Translations under genes and position numbers: made by a program
Shown here: one piece after another, positions 42,419 through 49,824 of the stretch
Position numbering within the stretch: position 1 is the first letter of the stretch
Layout of the letters: each line of letters begins with the position of its first letter
Assembly: GCA_002127285.1 (NCBI GenBank)
Contig: NFUW01000001.1
Location: 632,057 to 696,056, forward strand
Reading direction: 5' to 3'
DNA length: 64,000 nt
Origin: Chitinophagaceae bacterium IBVUCB1
Lineage (GTDB): Bacteria > Bacteroidota > Bacteroidia > Chitinophagales > Chitinophagaceae
The notes under the pieces: generated by a model
Databases searched by the model: none
What the model saw: only the letters and a program-made list of their open reading frames with translations
Told to the model about the DNA's origin: nothing

Positions 42419-43480
42419 TTATTTTTTATACACTTTGATGGCGCAGGTATAAAGCTGCAATCTGGCTATCTGCTGCTCTGTAGCCAAGCCTGCCAGCCTG
42501 TTGGCTTTTGGCATTTTCAGCCCCGTTTCTTTTGGCAGCGATTGCACCAGCCTGGCTACGGCCTTAGAACTTACTGCAAACGTAGTGCCGCTGCTTTCAG
42601 ACTCCTTACCGGTTATCATTGCCAGTACATTGCCCTTTGTGTCTAATATGGGCGCGCCACTCTGCCCCGGGTGTGCTGCAATTTCCAATCTGTATTGAGA
42701 CGAATCTCCCTGATAACCATTTACGGCACTTATATATCCCTCGTTATATACAATCTCATCCTGCGGAAAACCAAGGCTGTACACTTTTGTGCCCGGCATA
42801 CGCTTAGCGGGTGCAAAGCTGTATGGCACTTCTCCCTTACCAAAACGGAAGAGCTTATCTTCTACTTTCAGTATAGCAATATCTGCTTGCTGGTCGTAGC
42901 CTACGGTATATGCTTTAAAATACCTGCCCTCGCTGTTTTGTATATATACTGAGTCTGCTCCTTCGGTTACGTGATAGTTGGTTACGAGATAACCATCGTT
43001 GCTCAATGCAAAGCCTGTACCTGTATAACGAACCTCTGCTGCAGGGCGTTGCTGTTCGCTGATATTATTTATAAGCTGATTTTGCGAACGCTTGTATTTC
43101 TCCAGGTCGCGTTTCAGCAGGCTATATTGCGACGCTATTTTTTTATTGCTATGCTGTATAGCCCAGTAAGTGCTAAGCGATGTAAGCATGGCTATACCCG
43201 CAGCTATACCTGCCGTACGCAGGTAGAAGGCACGCAGGGTAATGGTGCGTGCAGCTTTGGGCTTGTTCTCTTGCGCTGCTATGCTTTGCAGCATATTACT
43301 GAAACGCCTGCCTGCGCCTGCCTGCTGCAATCCGCGTACTAAGTTTACACATTCTGCAAACTCGTTGGCAAAAACCACATCTATCGCCAGCCTGTCTTTC
43401 AGCGTATTCAGTTCTTGTGCAGACAATGAGCCTGCTACATAACGCTCTGCCGTTTCCATCATCATTTGCTCGGTCATCAT
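42419..43480 (-). CDS. anti-sigma-like membrane protein with periplasmic trypsin-like protease domain
   Basis: The 353-residue protein has three parts. Residues 1-75 match the short N-terminal anti-sigma-like segment of Bacteroidota (ETAERYVAGSLSAQELNTLKDRL...FANEF). A helix at about 86-107 crosses the inner membrane after a basic stretch, placing the N-terminus inside. After a coiled-coil (110-142) a chymotrypsin-fold protease (about 150-315) follows with H170 (TNYHVTEG), D200 (QQADIAIL) and S274 (HPGQSGAP), all three triad residues present. It starts 11 bp after the ECF sigma gene and very likely controls that factor. A periplasmic protease fused to a regulator is unusual; it could sense or degrade envelope targets. 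Confidence 0.85.
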   Translation of the reverse strand: MMTEQMMMETAERYVAGSLSAQELNTLKDRLAIDVVFANEFAECVNLVRGLQQAGAGRRFSNMLQSIAAQENKPKAARTITLRAFYLRTAGIAAGIAMLTSLSTYWAIQHSNKKIASQYSLLKRDLEKYKRSQNQLINNISEQQRPAAEVRYTGTGFALSNDGYLVTNYHVTEGADSVYIQNSEGRYFKAYTVGYDQQADIAILKVEDKLFRFGKGEVPYSFAPAKRMPGTKVYSLGFPQDEIVYNEGYISAVNGYQGDSSQYRLEIAAHPGQSGAPILDTKGNVLAMITGKESESSGTTFAVSSKAVARLVQSLPKETGLKMPKANRLAGLATEQQIARLQLYTCAIKVYKK

Positions 43481-43491
43481 ATCACTATCAC

Positions 43492-44061
43492 TTATTGTTT
43501 CACCTGCGCCGCGTAGAAGATTTTTCTAAGCCGTGCAAGGCATTTGTATTTTTGCGTTTTGGCATTGTCGGTATTGGTATATCCAAATCCCGTTGCTATT
43601 TCCTGCATTGTTTTATCCTGATGATAAAACGCTTTTAACAGCGATTGGCAAGGTTCGCCTATCTGTTCCAACGCGGCATTCAGTTGTGCATAATACTGCT
43701 CCCGTTCTTTGTGTGCGCTGATGTCGTCTTCGTACGCCCACTCTTGCCTGTCTTCATCGGGCAGCGATATGGGGCCCTGCTGCATTTTGTTGGCTTTCTT
43801 GTACCATAAATGTTTGCTGATGGCAAACAGGTAAGTACCAATCCTGCAACTAAGCCTGAACGCTTCGTCCTGCGATTTTTCATACAGTATTACGATGGCT
43901 TCCTGATATATATCCGCCGCGTCTGCATCCGTGCCCCCGTTATGCATTATCCATTTGGTAATGGTAGGATAATGCTGCTTATATACCTGCTCAGTAGCTT
44001 CTCGCCCGCCTGTTGCCAGTTGAGCCAACAATAATTCTTCTGTATGATTAGAACCTTGCAC
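43492..44061 (-). CDS. ECF-type sigma-70 factor
   Basis: The 189-residue protein has sigma region 2 (about 30-95: YPTITKWIMHNGGTDADAADIYQEAIVILYEK) and region 4 (about 130-180: LLKAFYHQDKTMQEIATGFGYTNTDNAKTQKYKCLARLR). It is a group IV sigma that would direct RNA polymerase to a small regulon. The start is GTG 44061 with AGGA upstream. It forms an operon with the anti-sigma-like protease. Confidence 0.92.
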   Translation of the reverse strand: MQGSNHTEELLLAQLATGGREATEQVYKQHYPTITKWIMHNGGTDADAADIYQEAIVILYEKSQDEAFRLSCRIGTYLFAISKHLWYKKANKMQQGPISLPDEDRQEWAYEDDISAHKEREQYYAQLNAALEQIGEPCQSLLKAFYHQDKTMQEIATGFGYTNTDNAKTQKYKCLARLRKIFYAAQVKQ

Positions 44062-44338
44062 TTATTAATCCTGCTTTTGATAAAAAGTAACCCTGCTGCG
44101 GGCAGAAAATTTGGTATTAAAACTTTGCTGTTATTTGTTTTATAAAGATAAACACCAAAATGTTAGGGGAATAATAATAATCTTTATTTGCTATAAGTAT
44201 TTGACAATCAATAGAATAAACGACAATTCAGCGCTTAAATACAAATTAAACAAAAAAATCTTTAAAAATTTCATTGTTTCTTGGGTTACCTTTTTCTGTT
44301 TTGGGTATAAATGTGAAACATCTTAAAATTTTAAGTTT

Positions 44339-44548
44339 ATGAAATTCGTTAAATTAAGCATTTTCGCTCTGACAATGGGTCTTTTCATCGCTTCTTGCGG
44401 TGGTAACACTGAAGCTGAAGCTCCAGCTGAAGATACAGCTGCTATGGCTGCTCCAGTTGAGCCTACTCCTGCTCCAGTTGCTGATACAGCTACTGCTGCT
44501 CCTGCAACTGACAGCGCTGCTGCAGCTGCTGCTCCTGCTGCTCACTAA
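44339..44548 (+). CDS. small Ala/Pro/Thr-rich lipoprotein
   Basis: The 69-residue protein has a lipoprotein signal ending IASCGGN (lipobox) and then a low-complexity tail of Ala, Pro, Thr, Asp and Glu (AEAPAEDTAAMAAPVEP...). It resembles the abundant short surface lipoproteins of Bacteroidota. The tail is probably disordered; no function is known. A strong terminator follows 23 bp after the stop. The 277 bp upstream (44062-44338) are AT-rich without another gene. Confidence 0.8.
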   Translation: MKFVKLSIFALTMGLFIASCGGNTEAEAPAEDTAAMAAPVEPTPAPVADTATAAPATDSAAAAAAPAAH

Positions 44549-44661: not shown

Positions 44662-46299
44662 AATATATTCAGGATATATACCAGTTATTCCAGTACCAGT
44701 TTCTGCATAGCCTTCTGCCCGTCTGCTGCTACCTCTACATAGTACACGCCACGGCTCAGCTTAGCTACATTCACCTCTTGGGTAAAGTTGCCGCCATCGT
44801 GCTTGTACATCTGCTGGTACACTTTCTGACCTGTTACGCTCGTGATGCTTACACTCACTTCTTTCGCGTCCTTAGCTCCGCTGAACTGTACTTTGCATAC
44901 GTCCTTTGCAGGGTTAGGGAACACCCCCAGGTTGCTGATGCCACCTACTATGCCTACGCCCGCAGCAAAGCGTTTGTTGAACTGTACCATCAGGTCTTCT
45001 GTTTCGCCGGATGTGTATGGACCGCAGGCTTCGTCTGACGGTATGCTCGGGCCTATATCGTTATTCAGTATGATGCGCATACCGGTAGGCACACCGGTTA
45101 TTACCGTGCTCGGTATCGTTACTTTATCTACTACCGTAAAGTTGCCAACATTCGTATAGCCTGTATATACACGCTCGTACGGTGCATCGTATTCTTTATC
45201 ATTGTTAAAGTCCATAAACACCGTAATCTTGGCATCGCCATGTACTGCCGTACGTTGTGTGTGGTACACCGTAAGCCCGTAGGTGCTGTCTACGTCCAGT
45301 TGCATCGGGCTCAGGTCGGTATGGTCGGTACGTTTCTCTTGTGCGCCCATATTCAGCAGGTGTGCGCCGCCTGTATTCGTATTGAACGTATGGAAGACGA
45401 TGCCGCCTATATCGCTGCTGTCTTTCGGATTGCTCGAGTTCTTGGGGTTGCCGCCAACTGCCTGACTGAAGCAGTAGCATTTATAGCCTTCACGTGCATC
45501 TATCTTCAGCGCGCTGGTATAGGTAGTATCTTTCGTTCGGGGGCATACCATACGTACTTTGTAATACAATGGCTGACCGCTGAATACGCGCATCAGTGTG
45601 TCTTTATTGCTCGTATTGCTGATCGTTGTCCAGAAGATATTATCACCCGATACTTGCCATACTTTTTGTAGTTCCGATTTTGTCGTCTCATAGCCTGCAT
45701 TCTCTGTTATATAGTCGTAACCGGGGCATAGCTTCGTTGATGTAGATGCCAATGTGCCTGCATTGCCGGGACCATTACATGGCTCATACCTCATATCTAC
45801 CAGATAGTCTTCTACTTCGCCCTGTGCCATACCAAAGCCGCATGAGTCTATATTGCCGCTGCTCAGTATCACACGCATTCCCGTCAGACCTATCTGCGCC
45901 GTCATCGGTATACGGTAGGTGTCAAACTCTGTATTCGGTATCTGTGAGCCACCGTTGATGTTGCGGGTAAGAACACGCTCGCCGGGGTCGAATATGCCAT
46001 TACGATCCAAATCTATAAACACGGCAACATTGCTCGGCGTAAACGTGGCAGCTGAATTGATTTGGGATATCAGAAAACGATAAACTGTATCGCGATACAT
46101 GATCACTTCTTTATTCGGCGGATATTGGAAATTCGTATAGGCTCTGTTGGCGGTAGTGTTATTTTGCGGCGGAGTGGAATTACCATTATTCAACATCGTA
46201 TCTCCACTGTTCATATTTATCACTTTCACATTACCTATATCCAACCCGGCAGTTGATGCAGCACCATTATCGCAATAACAATAATAAAACGGTGCAATC
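44632..46299. repeat. 1,668-bp direct repeat, copy 1
   Basis: This segment and 47267-48934 show no difference at the places I compared by eye; the offset is 2,635 bp throughout. It runs from the terminator hairpin through codons for the last 537 residues of the GEVED protein. The sequences diverge abruptly at both ends. Confidence 0.9.
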
Positions 46300-47096
46300 C
46301 TCACTTCCCATGGAGTGGTAGTAAATGTAAACGAGTTGTTCAAACATCTTACAGTGCAACGATACCAACGTGGTGCATTGATAGCATCTTGAATAGCTGC
46401 ACTGAAAGCACCTACAGTAGCAGGGTGTGGTTGCCACGTAGAGCCGCCATTATCTGAGTACTCCCAACTGTAGCTGGCATCTGCATAAAACCTGTCTATA
46501 TCAACAGTAAAGAGTTTGCCCGGGCATACCAGCGACGGAGCTTTTATATCTGTAGTAGGTGTTTGCGTACATGGATAACCATAAAAGAATTCTACTGTCA
46601 GTGTAACGGTTGGGTTACCACAATCTGGAAAACCCCATGCACCATTGTTATTGAAACATGTAGCACAACCACCTCGTACAGACCTGCCCGGATTCGTGCA
46701 GGCGCATATATTTTGGTTCATGCTCAGCTCAGGTCCAGATGTTGCAGTAGCACCGCAATTGCCCACGCGCCATGTACGGGTGCCATCTACCCAAGTATAT
46801 GTGGGGCTGGCACTTGTGAATGTACGCAAGCGCATGGCTATGTCCTGTACAATAACAGGGTCCATACATGAATCGCTGTTTGTAACACTGCCCGTTACAC
46901 CGGTTACTTTCATCTTGCTATATGGCAGTGGCAACAACGATGCCCTGAAAGTATTCCAGTTAGTTAACTGTGTTGCCGTAAGATTGCCTTGCGTAGAAGT
47001 ATATGTATCTGTAAATATTATTTGTGCACTTGCAGATTGCAAAAACATACAGAATACAATCACTATCCCCAATGAAGTGAAGTACAGTTTTTTCAT
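44685..47096 (-). CDS. T9SS-exported GEVED-domain protein, paralog 1
   Basis: The 803-residue protein has a signal peptide, a head (about 25-170; cysteine-rich, ACTNPGRSVRGGCATC), an Ig-like region (CPGKLFTVDIDRFY...SWEYSDNGG), then GEVED domains (VFIDLDRNGIFDPGERV...GEVEDYLV and VFMDFNNDKEYD...GETEDLMV) and a type A T9SS sorting domain (LGVFPNPAKDVCKV...LSRGVYYVEV). It would be secreted and attached to the cell surface. Residues 267-803 are in the repeat shared with paralog 2. Role unknown; adhesin or surface enzyme carrier. Confidence 0.9.
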   Translation of the reverse strand: MKKLYFTSLGIVIVFCMFLQSASAQIIFTDTYTSTQGNLTATQLTNWNTFRASLLPLPYSKMKVTGVTGSVTNSDSCMDPVIVQDIAMRLRTFTSASPTYTWVDGTRTWRVGNCGATATSGPELSMNQNICACTNPGRSVRGGCATCFNNNGAWGFPDCGNPTVTLTVEFFYGYPCTQTPTTDIKAPSLVCPGKLFTVDIDRFYADASYSWEYSDNGGSTWQPHPATVGAFSAAIQDAINAPRWYRCTVRCLNNSFTFTTTPWEVRIAPFYYCYCDNGAASTAGLDIGNVKVINMNSGDTMLNNGNSTPPQNNTTANRAYTNFQYPPNKEVIMYRDTVYRFLISQINSAATFTPSNVAVFIDLDRNGIFDPGERVLTRNINGGSQIPNTEFDTYRIPMTAQIGLTGMRVILSSGNIDSCGFGMAQGEVEDYLVDMRYEPCNGPGNAGTLASTSTKLCPGYDYITENAGYETTKSELQKVWQVSGDNIFWTTISNTSNKDTLMRVFSGQPLYYKVRMVCPRTKDTTYTSALKIDAREGYKCYCFSQAVGGNPKNSSNPKDSSDIGGIVFHTFNTNTGGAHLLNMGAQEKRTDHTDLSPMQLDVDSTYGLTVYHTQRTAVHGDAKITVFMDFNNDKEYDAPYERVYTGYTNVGNFTVVDKVTIPSTVITGVPTGMRIILNNDIGPSIPSDEACGPYTSGETEDLMVQFNKRFAAGVGIVGGISNLGVFPNPAKDVCKVQFSGAKDAKEVSVSITSVTGQKVYQQMYKHDGGNFTQEVNVAKLSRGVYYVEVAADGQKAMQKLVLE

Positions 47097-47296: not shown

Positions 47297-48934
47297 AATA
47301 TATTCAGGATATATACCAGTTATTCCAGTACCAGTTTCTGCATAGCCTTCTGCCCGTCTGCTGCTACCTCTACATAGTACACGCCACGGCTCAGCTTAGC
47401 TACATTCACCTCTTGGGTAAAGTTGCCGCCATCGTGCTTGTACATCTGCTGGTACACTTTCTGACCTGTTACGCTCGTGATGCTTACACTCACTTCTTTC
47501 GCGTCCTTAGCTCCGCTGAACTGTACTTTGCATACGTCCTTTGCAGGGTTAGGGAACACCCCCAGGTTGCTGATGCCACCTACTATGCCTACGCCCGCAG
47601 CAAAGCGTTTGTTGAACTGTACCATCAGGTCTTCTGTTTCGCCGGATGTGTATGGACCGCAGGCTTCGTCTGACGGTATGCTCGGGCCTATATCGTTATT
47701 CAGTATGATGCGCATACCGGTAGGCACACCGGTTATTACCGTGCTCGGTATCGTTACTTTATCTACTACCGTAAAGTTGCCAACATTCGTATAGCCTGTA
47801 TATACACGCTCGTACGGTGCATCGTATTCTTTATCATTGTTAAAGTCCATAAACACCGTAATCTTGGCATCGCCATGTACTGCCGTACGTTGTGTGTGGT
47901 ACACCGTAAGCCCGTAGGTGCTGTCTACGTCCAGTTGCATCGGGCTCAGGTCGGTATGGTCGGTACGTTTCTCTTGTGCGCCCATATTCAGCAGGTGTGC
48001 GCCGCCTGTATTCGTATTGAACGTATGGAAGACGATGCCGCCTATATCGCTGCTGTCTTTCGGATTGCTCGAGTTCTTGGGGTTGCCGCCAACTGCCTGA
48101 CTGAAGCAGTAGCATTTATAGCCTTCACGTGCATCTATCTTCAGCGCGCTGGTATAGGTAGTATCTTTCGTTCGGGGGCATACCATACGTACTTTGTAAT
48201 ACAATGGCTGACCGCTGAATACGCGCATCAGTGTGTCTTTATTGCTCGTATTGCTGATCGTTGTCCAGAAGATATTATCACCCGATACTTGCCATACTTT
48301 TTGTAGTTCCGATTTTGTCGTCTCATAGCCTGCATTCTCTGTTATATAGTCGTAACCGGGGCATAGCTTCGTTGATGTAGATGCCAATGTGCCTGCATTG
48401 CCGGGACCATTACATGGCTCATACCTCATATCTACCAGATAGTCTTCTACTTCGCCCTGTGCCATACCAAAGCCGCATGAGTCTATATTGCCGCTGCTCA
48501 GTATCACACGCATTCCCGTCAGACCTATCTGCGCCGTCATCGGTATACGGTAGGTGTCAAACTCTGTATTCGGTATCTGTGAGCCACCGTTGATGTTGCG
48601 GGTAAGAACACGCTCGCCGGGGTCGAATATGCCATTACGATCCAAATCTATAAACACGGCAACATTGCTCGGCGTAAACGTGGCAGCTGAATTGATTTGG
48701 GATATCAGAAAACGATAAACTGTATCGCGATACATGATCACTTCTTTATTCGGCGGATATTGGAAATTCGTATAGGCTCTGTTGGCGGTAGTGTTATTTT
48801 GCGGCGGAGTGGAATTACCATTATTCAACATCGTATCTCCACTGTTCATATTTATCACTTTCACATTACCTATATCCAACCCGGCAGTTGATGCAGCACC
48901 ATTATCGCAATAACAATAATAAAACGGTGCAATC
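47267..48934. repeat. 1,668-bp direct repeat, copy 2
   Basis: This is the second copy of 44632-46299. It includes the terminator hairpin at 47267-47296 and coding DNA for the last 537 residues of paralog 2. Confidence 0.9.
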
Positions 48935-49824
48935 TTAACTTCTTTTATATTAGTCTTGAATGTGAATGTGCTATTGTTTTTGCAAGTAATGGTTAAACGG
49001 TATGAACGTGCTATATTGATAGCATCTTTTATTTCGCCCAGCAAGCCTACGGTAGAAGGATGTGGAAACCAAGTAGCACCACTGTTATCAGAATACTCCC
49101 AAGCATAGGTGGCGTCTGCATAATAAGTTGTTGGCGATAACGTAAACTGTTTGCCCGGGCATACAATATCCGGCCCTGCGATTTGTGACTCAGGTACTTT
49201 GTTGCAAGGAAACCCTAAGAAAAAGTCGAAACCAAACTGATATGAATAACGCCTGGCTGTACCTGTGGGATTACTTGTAAGGCCATATGTTTGTGTGCTA
49301 CCTGTGTATATAGGATTGATGGGTACACCACCTGCATATAGGATATAACCACCTATGCCGCCCACTTTGCCTGTTTGGCTTACATCTATCACCAATGGTT
49401 GAGACATATCTACATATACCGGTGTTGGCAGGTCTATGGGTATCCATGAGTTAGCGGTAGCTGCCGGCAATGTTACTGTACTGGCTGGTATGCTGCTGGT
49501 AAGGCCTGTAACATATGTTCCTGTAAGTGATGTACTTGTCGTATTGCCAATATCTACTTTAAAGTTGTTATACGTTGTTGATACAGAGTTTTGCCATGCC
49601 CGGAAATATATCCTTGTAATAAACCCTACACCACTGATAGCTGGTGCAAAATCGCCCGGCAGATACAAAAACTGCGAACGGTAATTATCCCATGTGGCAC
49701 CATCGCCAAGTGGTATGTAGTTACCTCCAGTTGCGGCAGTATATGTGTACTGCGGCGTTTGCGCTTGCAGATTGGCGGTAAACATCATTACTGCCATCAC
49801 AAACATTGATAAAACTTTGTTCAT
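47320..49824 (-). CDS. T9SS-exported GEVED-domain protein, paralog 2
   Basis: The 834-residue protein has a signal peptide (MNKVLSMFVMAVMMFTANLQAQ), an N-terminal region unlike paralog 1 (about 25-215; TGGNYIPLGDGATWDNYRS...YNNFKVDIGNTTSTSLTG, a beta-sandwich-like fold), an Ig-like region related but divergent (CPGKQFTLSPTTYYADATYAWEYS), and from residue 298 the GEVED domains and T9SS sorting domain matching paralog 1. It reads upstream of paralog 1 on the same strand. The pair probably arose by duplication followed by gene conversion of the C-terminal part. Confidence 0.9.
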   Translation of the reverse strand: MNKVLSMFVMAVMMFTANLQAQTPQYTYTAATGGNYIPLGDGATWDNYRSQFLYLPGDFAPAISGVGFITRIYFRAWQNSVSTTYNNFKVDIGNTTSTSLTGTYVTGLTSSIPASTVTLPAATANSWIPIDLPTPVYVDMSQPLVIDVSQTGKVGGIGGYILYAGGVPINPIYTGSTQTYGLTSNPTGTARRYSYQFGFDFFLGFPCNKVPESQIAGPDIVCPGKQFTLSPTTYYADATYAWEYSDNSGATWFPHPSTVGLLGEIKDAINIARSYRLTITCKNNSTFTFKTNIKEVKIAPFYYCYCDNGAASTAGLDIGNVKVINMNSGDTMLNNGNSTPPQNNTTANRAYTNFQYPPNKEVIMYRDTVYRFLISQINSAATFTPSNVAVFIDLDRNGIFDPGERVLTRNINGGSQIPNTEFDTYRIPMTAQIGLTGMRVILSSGNIDSCGFGMAQGEVEDYLVDMRYEPCNGPGNAGTLASTSTKLCPGYDYITENAGYETTKSELQKVWQVSGDNIFWTTISNTSNKDTLMRVFSGQPLYYKVRMVCPRTKDTTYTSALKIDAREGYKCYCFSQAVGGNPKNSSNPKDSSDIGGIVFHTFNTNTGGAHLLNMGAQEKRTDHTDLSPMQLDVDSTYGLTVYHTQRTAVHGDAKITVFMDFNNDKEYDAPYERVYTGYTNVGNFTVVDKVTIPSTVITGVPTGMRIILNNDIGPSIPSDEACGPYTSGETEDLMVQFNKRFAAGVGIVGGISNLGVFPNPAKDVCKVQFSGAKDAKEVSVSITSVTGQKVYQQMYKHDGGNFTQEVNVAKLSRGVYYVEVAADGQKAMQKLVLE

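Follow-up and report, generated by a model that had tools for sequence, protein, structure and literature searches.

A conserved Bacteroidota locus pairs an ECF sigma factor gene with a gene for a membrane-anchored, DegS-like protease carrying an anti-sigma-like head, beside a divergent small lipoprotein gene

The window analysed here is a stretch of 64,000 nucleotides from Chitinophagaceae bacterium IBVUCB1 (contig NFUW01000001.1, positions 632,057 to 696,056), in which a first-pass annotation had marked an ECF sigma factor gene followed by a gene for an anti-sigma-like protein with a trypsin-fold protease. Both open reading frames of this pair were recovered on the minus strand, separated by a gap of 11 nt (Table 1). 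The sigma protein P0002 scores 60 bits with the ECF model TIGR02937 (cut-off 42.9) and falls just below the cut-off of Pfam Sigma70_r2 (23.6 vs 24). Its region 4 reads FGYTNxDNAKTQKYKCLxRLKKIF in an alignment of 28 rows. Seventeen genes of the 3.41-Mb genome, P0002 among them, exceed the ECF cut-off.

Table 1. Features of the sigma/protease/lipoprotein locus, in positions of the window; residue numbers are those of the encoded proteins.
Feature	Coordinates	Strand	Description
ECF-type sigma factor gene (P0002)	43492..44061	-	189 aa, GTG start; TIGR02937 match
Second gene (P0001)	42419..43480	-	353 aa; anti-sigma-like head, membrane helix, coiled coil and HtrA/DegS-like protease
Cytoplasmic three-helix head, anti-sigma-like	43256..43480	-	residues 1-75; near-invariant E12 and Y14
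Membrane helix	43157..43216	-	residues 89-108; invariant A93-A94, forming an xAA motif at 43199-43207
Coiled-coil stalk	43055..43132	-	residues 117-142; sequence and length variable
S1C (HtrA/DegS-like) protease domain	42533..43033	-	residues 150-316; triad H170-D200-S274; without PDZ domain
C-terminal helix-strand tail	42422..42493	-	residues 330-353; conserved (Q337, V348); sits in PDZ position
Promoter-like motif 5' of sigma gene	44065..44093	-	GGGTTACTTTTTATCAAAAGCAGGATTAA; ends ~3 nt before start codon
Promoter-like motif 5' of lipoprotein gene	44283..44311	+	GGGTTACCTTTTTCTGTTTTGGGTATAAA
Small lipoprotein gene	44339..44548	+	69 aa; lipobox IASC at C20; low-complexity Ala/Thr/Asp/Pro tail, final His

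The AlphaFold model of P0001, built from 69 homologues (mean pLDDT 87), displays the layout that the annotation had claimed, namely a short anti-sigma-like head (helices 4-16, 21-33, and 35-72), one membrane helix (82-110), a coiled-coil helix (117-142), and then a trypsin fold. About 38 residues remain after the protease fold and contain a helix (334-342) and a strand (345-351). Residues 170, 200, and 274 are indeed His, Asp, and Ser, and the trypsin assignment is borne out by a Pfam Trypsin_2 match over residues 154-288 (E 3e-22). The predicted protease domain superposes on HtrA1 (Z 20.9, 1.9 Å, 162 residues) and on DegS-deltaPDZ (Z 20.4, 2.2 Å, 164 residues), with a Foldseek match at E 5e-12; P0001 scores 58 bits with the DegS model, the cut-off of which is 423. 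The Pfam scan of P0001 gave no match to a PDZ or FecR domain, nor, up to E 5, to the RsgI N-terminal or NTF2 domain, and no curated family spanning the whole protein was found among the Pfam and NCBIfam models. Because the triad is invariant in 37/37 homologues and throughout the 69-sequence alignment, catalysis appears to be under selection. The analysis supports P0001 as a membrane-anchored protease of DegS-like type, intact and probably facing outward. No conserved cleavage site was found in the stalk in the alignment of 37 homologues.

The N-terminal segment, which the annotation had described as anti-sigma-like, is recognized more readily by its surroundings and its fold than by sequence models. 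Scans of 26 heads against Pfam and NCBIfam reached only zf-HC2, RskA_N, and NF052375, weakly (E 0.006-0.03), and a head sequence profile run against PDB chains returned chance matches only (nuclear receptors, E 0.1). A profile of residues 1-80 recovers other open reading frames in relatives, mostly of 230-290 aa, and an ECF sigma gene lies directly upstream in 20/20 of those fetched, one of them by a weak match (L181, E 0.08). In a 3.41-Mb genome with 17 genes above the ECF cut-off, a gene picked at random would seldom lie beside one of them. Modelled by themselves, residues 1-80 give a fold with 14 PDB matches, six of which are chains of the anti-sigma factors RskA, RslA, and ChrR, with RskA ranking first (E 1.7, Z 6.1). 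These six matches are individually weak (E 1.7-9.2), but the enrichment of anti-sigma chains in the list is not, and the neighbourhood supports the head as an anti-sigma-like module, to which the modelled fold may also point. Only 6% of Bacteroidota ECF sigma factors have a recognised class I anti-sigma nearby (PMC7406223). Helix 1 of the head has a near-invariant E12, and the last helix of the sigma factor has an R177 that does not vary in the 28-row alignment; this couple recalls the D11-R178 contact of RseA-RpoE (PMC7406223), a putative equivalence.

Most of the open reading frames found with the head profile combine the head with a membrane helix and TPR-like repeats, and two (L181 and L182) resemble FecR proteins, L182 being confirmed as such by Pfam (1.8e-17). 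P0001 shares with the FecR-type anti-sigmas of Bacteroidota both the second place in an ECF gene pair and a related head of helices at the N-terminus, but it has a protease where they have the FecR domain. Bacteroidota FecR anti-sigmas are normally coupled to TonB receptors. The TPR-type second genes (L163-L180) share the head and the position directly downstream of an ECF sigma gene, and their membrane helix mostly contains AA; they differ in having a TPR-like ectodomain and no protease. As a separate observation, these loci comprise ECF sigma genes in related families, each followed by an uncharacterised protein of this build, and are probably a large set of sigma/anti-sigma pairs.

The membrane helix of P0001 carries an xAA motif, mostly IAA or VAA, which is present in 116/116 homologues. 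A93 and A94 sit near the start of the helix, are both invariant in the 69-row alignment, and are the sole invariant residues before the protease domain in the family alignment. The membrane helix of RsgI anti-sigmas is a site of RseP cleavage, and ends of xAA type are recognised by ClpXP (PMC12203970). An RseP homologue (M50 protease) is encoded in the genome (G000:C1:559059-560336), so P0001 shows the features of a substrate of regulated intramembrane proteolysis, namely a single-pass chain with xAA in its membrane helix and a genome that also encodes RseP. The conserved xAA suggests release by intramembrane proteolysis.

The annotation had raised the question of whether sigma and protease always stand together. 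The sigma gene lies directly upstream of the protease gene in 36/36 family genomes, with a gap between -49 and +49 nt for the longest open reading frames. Every sampled genus of the family has a full-length orthologue of P0001, as a single copy per genome, and those with an adjacent sigma gene span 22 genera. A second set of 80 loci was taken from named genomes (Chitinophaga, Niastella, Sediminibacterium, Pedobacter, Mucilaginibacter, Olivibacter, Hymenobacter, Spirosoma, Larkinella, and others), a few of which also belong to the family sample; the sigma gene is adjacent in 79, and the 80th locus ends at a contig edge. The pairing is far beyond chance. Neither a head without similarity to sigma-binding domains nor a protease usually found without a sigma gene, two of the outcomes that the first-pass annotation had itself set against its proposal, was found.

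In an even sample of the phylum, the long form occurs in 21/296 genomes from four families, and six more genomes have the protease clade only. The five of these six that were retrieved (L225-L229), together with L039, have other N-termini with export- or lipoprotein-signal-like starts and no upstream sigma gene. The same protease clade, including the C-terminal tail, is thereby seen to occur sigma-less in other Bacteroidota families. The clade looks like an exported type that, in the window's lineage, is fused to an anti-sigma-like head, and the exported look of the sigma-less relatives fits a periplasmic location of the protease domain in P0001.

A small lipoprotein gene diverges from the sigma gene in 109/112 loci, at a distance of ~50-480 nt, and encodes ~45-105 aa. 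When whole genomes are searched with the lipoprotein profile, the copy beside the sigma gene scores highest in nearly every family genome. The mature protein has ~50 residues and is rich in Ala, Thr, Asp, Lys, Ser, and Val; aromatic residues are absent in 106/109, and 94/109 end in either Lys (66) or His (28). The remaining 16 ECF loci, examined as a control, hold no true divergent lipoprotein, the one match to the lipoprotein pattern being a 46-residue open reading frame without the characteristic tail. Ala is encoded by GCT in 91% of cases in the lipoprotein gene, and there are no C- or G-ending codons for Ala, Thr, Pro, or Gly; this codon usage is suggestive of high expression, although the ribosomal protein genes here are no clean yardstick. 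In two genomes of the genus, the gene is duplicated in tandem (G009:C23:279242-279690 and G014:C6:555577-556028).

In being small and of low complexity, the window lipoprotein resembles the PG1828-family lipoproteins and Lpp. It differs from them in its final His and in its score of 19 bits with NF050142, where a relative reaches 44.6 and the cut-off is 50, and membership of the PG1828 family was rejected. A weak alanine-zipper (Lpp/OprI) match was seen in just one relative. Ten PG1828-type loci were checked; no sigma gene was found near them, and the promoter-like motif described below was present only at that of G060, a genome with the sigma/protease pair.

The motif, GGGTTACYTTT-N11-GKATWAA, faces both the sigma and the lipoprotein gene, its two copies lying at opposite ends of the intergenic region and each being directed at a start codon. 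Its -35 half resembles those of ECF promoters. Judging from the end of the motif so close to the start codon, the sigma mRNA may be leaderless. With up to two mismatches, the motif is present on the lipoprotein side in 101/109 regions and on the sigma side in 84/109, compared with 0.4% of shuffled intergenic regions. The whole 3.41-Mb genome has only two matches, both at this locus, and 15 genomes of the genus each have exactly two sites with at most one mismatch, again all at this locus. Where the two genes have come apart, each keeps its own motif, as in G019, in which the lipoprotein gene is on a separate contig from the sigma gene, and in G060, in which it lies 1.9 Mb away. In contrast, the motif was not found at small lipoproteins of this kind where a genome has no sigma/protease pair. 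A second small lipoprotein gene of G018, far from the locus, also carries the motif. In two genera (G018, G021; L193, L198), the motif precedes a gene for a 96-aa AMPK1_CBM (glycogen-binding-like) protein, and in some genera it stands before a methylglyoxal-synthase-like gene and a VWA-type lipoprotein gene (named by eye). The regulon can thus grow and does not everywhere consist of one gene.

Starting from what the sequences themselves display, that is, the domains, the intact triad, the obligate linkage, the common and nearly unique motif, and the xAA motif, we propose an autoregulated ECF sigma/anti-sigma circuit for one small envelope lipoprotein, with sensing via a built-in DegS-like protease, and we give this reading about an even chance. 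The sigma factor would use the two motif copies to transcribe the divergent lipoprotein gene as well as its own operon, and the three-helix head would bind and inhibit the factor, holding it at the inner membrane. The DegS-like domain, displayed in the periplasm and presumably active there, would serve as the sensor and would be the most likely site-1 protease, which, once triggered, may cut its own stalk or that of a neighbour. RseP would next cleave the helix within the membrane, at xAA, after which ClpXP would degrade the head and set the sigma factor free. The signal would probably be the level or traffic of the lipoprotein itself, or envelope damage; the lipoprotein is suggested here because the predicted regulon is tiny. 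The least secure step is the first cut by the protease of P0001, because the stalk has no conserved site. The lipoprotein gene and the common motif, neither of them mentioned in the first-pass annotation, favour a circuit dedicated to the lipoprotein over a general stress regulon. A bolder version would make P0001 an RseA-DegS-like one-protein fusion acting as the thermostat for a single abundant lipoprotein, the protease domain reading the low-complexity tail and releasing or withholding a sigma factor whose sole other target is the lipoprotein; in so specific a form, we consider the idea unlikely.

The protease could instead act mainly as an effector, trimming or degrading proteins of the envelope, perhaps the lipoprotein among them, while the head tethers or assists the sigma factor in the manner of FecR. 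This is unlikely in our view, though it has several points to recommend it: heads of FecR type (L181, L182) are among the relatives of the P0001 head, the N-terminus of E. coli FecR is required for sigma activity (PMC7406223), and the tail of the lipoprotein, of low complexity (rich in A/T/D/S/V, without aromatics in 106/109), could be a substrate. However, the best fold matches of the head are inhibitory class I heads (RskA and RslA), and the xAA conserved in the membrane helix is suggestive of release through intramembrane proteolysis, both of which speak against this alternative.

The circuit might also run as proposed with a protease domain that only binds, sensing a peptide, the lipoprotein tail, or a polysaccharide, while another periplasmic protease makes the first cut. 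A precedent is the S1C domain of RsgI9 from C. thermocellum, described as a protease-like, polysaccharide-binding domain (PMC12203970), and a separate DegP/HtrA-type protein in the genome could supply the cut. Yet a triad that is invariant in 37 and in 69 sequences, and that is kept even in the sigma-less relatives, would be needless for pure binding, and we consider this possibility rather slight. Slimmer still is the prospect that the motif copies belong to another regulator, as its operators or promoters, and that the lipoprotein is no target of the sigma factor. The motif is a predicted promoter only and its -10-like half is AT-rich, but two elements with fixed spacing point at both start codons, the -35 half is like those of ECF promoters, the motif stays with the sigma and lipoprotein genes even when these are far apart, and similar lipoproteins in genomes without the pair do not have it. 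The notion of an ordinary HtrA-type protease lying beside the sigma gene by chance, with no anti-sigma function, was dropped as extremely improbable in view of the adjacency counts (36/36 and 79/80), the obligate synteny across several families, and the anti-sigma-like head, even though the protease domain is the one part that sequence searches identify clearly by themselves.

The proposed circuit resembles that of RseA and DegS in E. coli, with its membrane-anchored anti-sigma, periplasmic DegS-type protease, and RseP step. It differs in that P0001 joins head and protease in one chain, without a PDZ domain, and in that the predicted regulon consists of one lipoprotein and the operon itself. 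Another parallel in build is RsgI9 of Clostridium thermocellum, a single-pass anti-sigma with an S1C-NTF2 ectodomain and an xAA in the membrane helix (PMC12203970), the structure of which (PDB 7sjy) stands at rank 45 among the structure matches of the protease domain. Like RsgI9, P0001 is a single-pass chain with an S1C protease fold, probably outside the cytoplasm, and an xAA in the membrane helix. In contrast to P0001, RsgI9 has an RsgI head for SigI-type sigma factors, is an orphan without a sigma partner, and comes from a Firmicute; it also carries an NTF2 domain and a separate periplasmic domain that cleaves itself, and a role in polysaccharide binding has been reported for it. Its S1C domain has been described as a binding, protease-like domain and not as a shown protease (PMC12203970). 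The first-pass annotation had spoken of a candidate for an undescribed system; this goes too far for the idea of the fusion, as RsgI9 already has an S1C domain on an anti-sigma (PMC12203970). Of the pair itself, no description was found in the papers searched.

The pair is thus of interest as a single-copy, deeply conserved arrangement with the proposed sensor, site-1 protease candidate, and putative anti-sigma in one chain. The predicted promoter and minimal regulon make the monitoring of lipoproteins or the envelope in Bacteroidota directly testable, and the circuit may serve as a dedicated thermostat for one envelope component. Beyond the lipoprotein gene, the window contains two genes for large secreted proteins of 803 and 834 aa on the minus strand (44685-47096 and 47320-49824). 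Their C-terminal parts are identical, letter for letter, over several hundred residues, and several identical open reading frames are also present on the opposite strand. This identity reflects a recent duplication, gene conversion, or an assembly effect.
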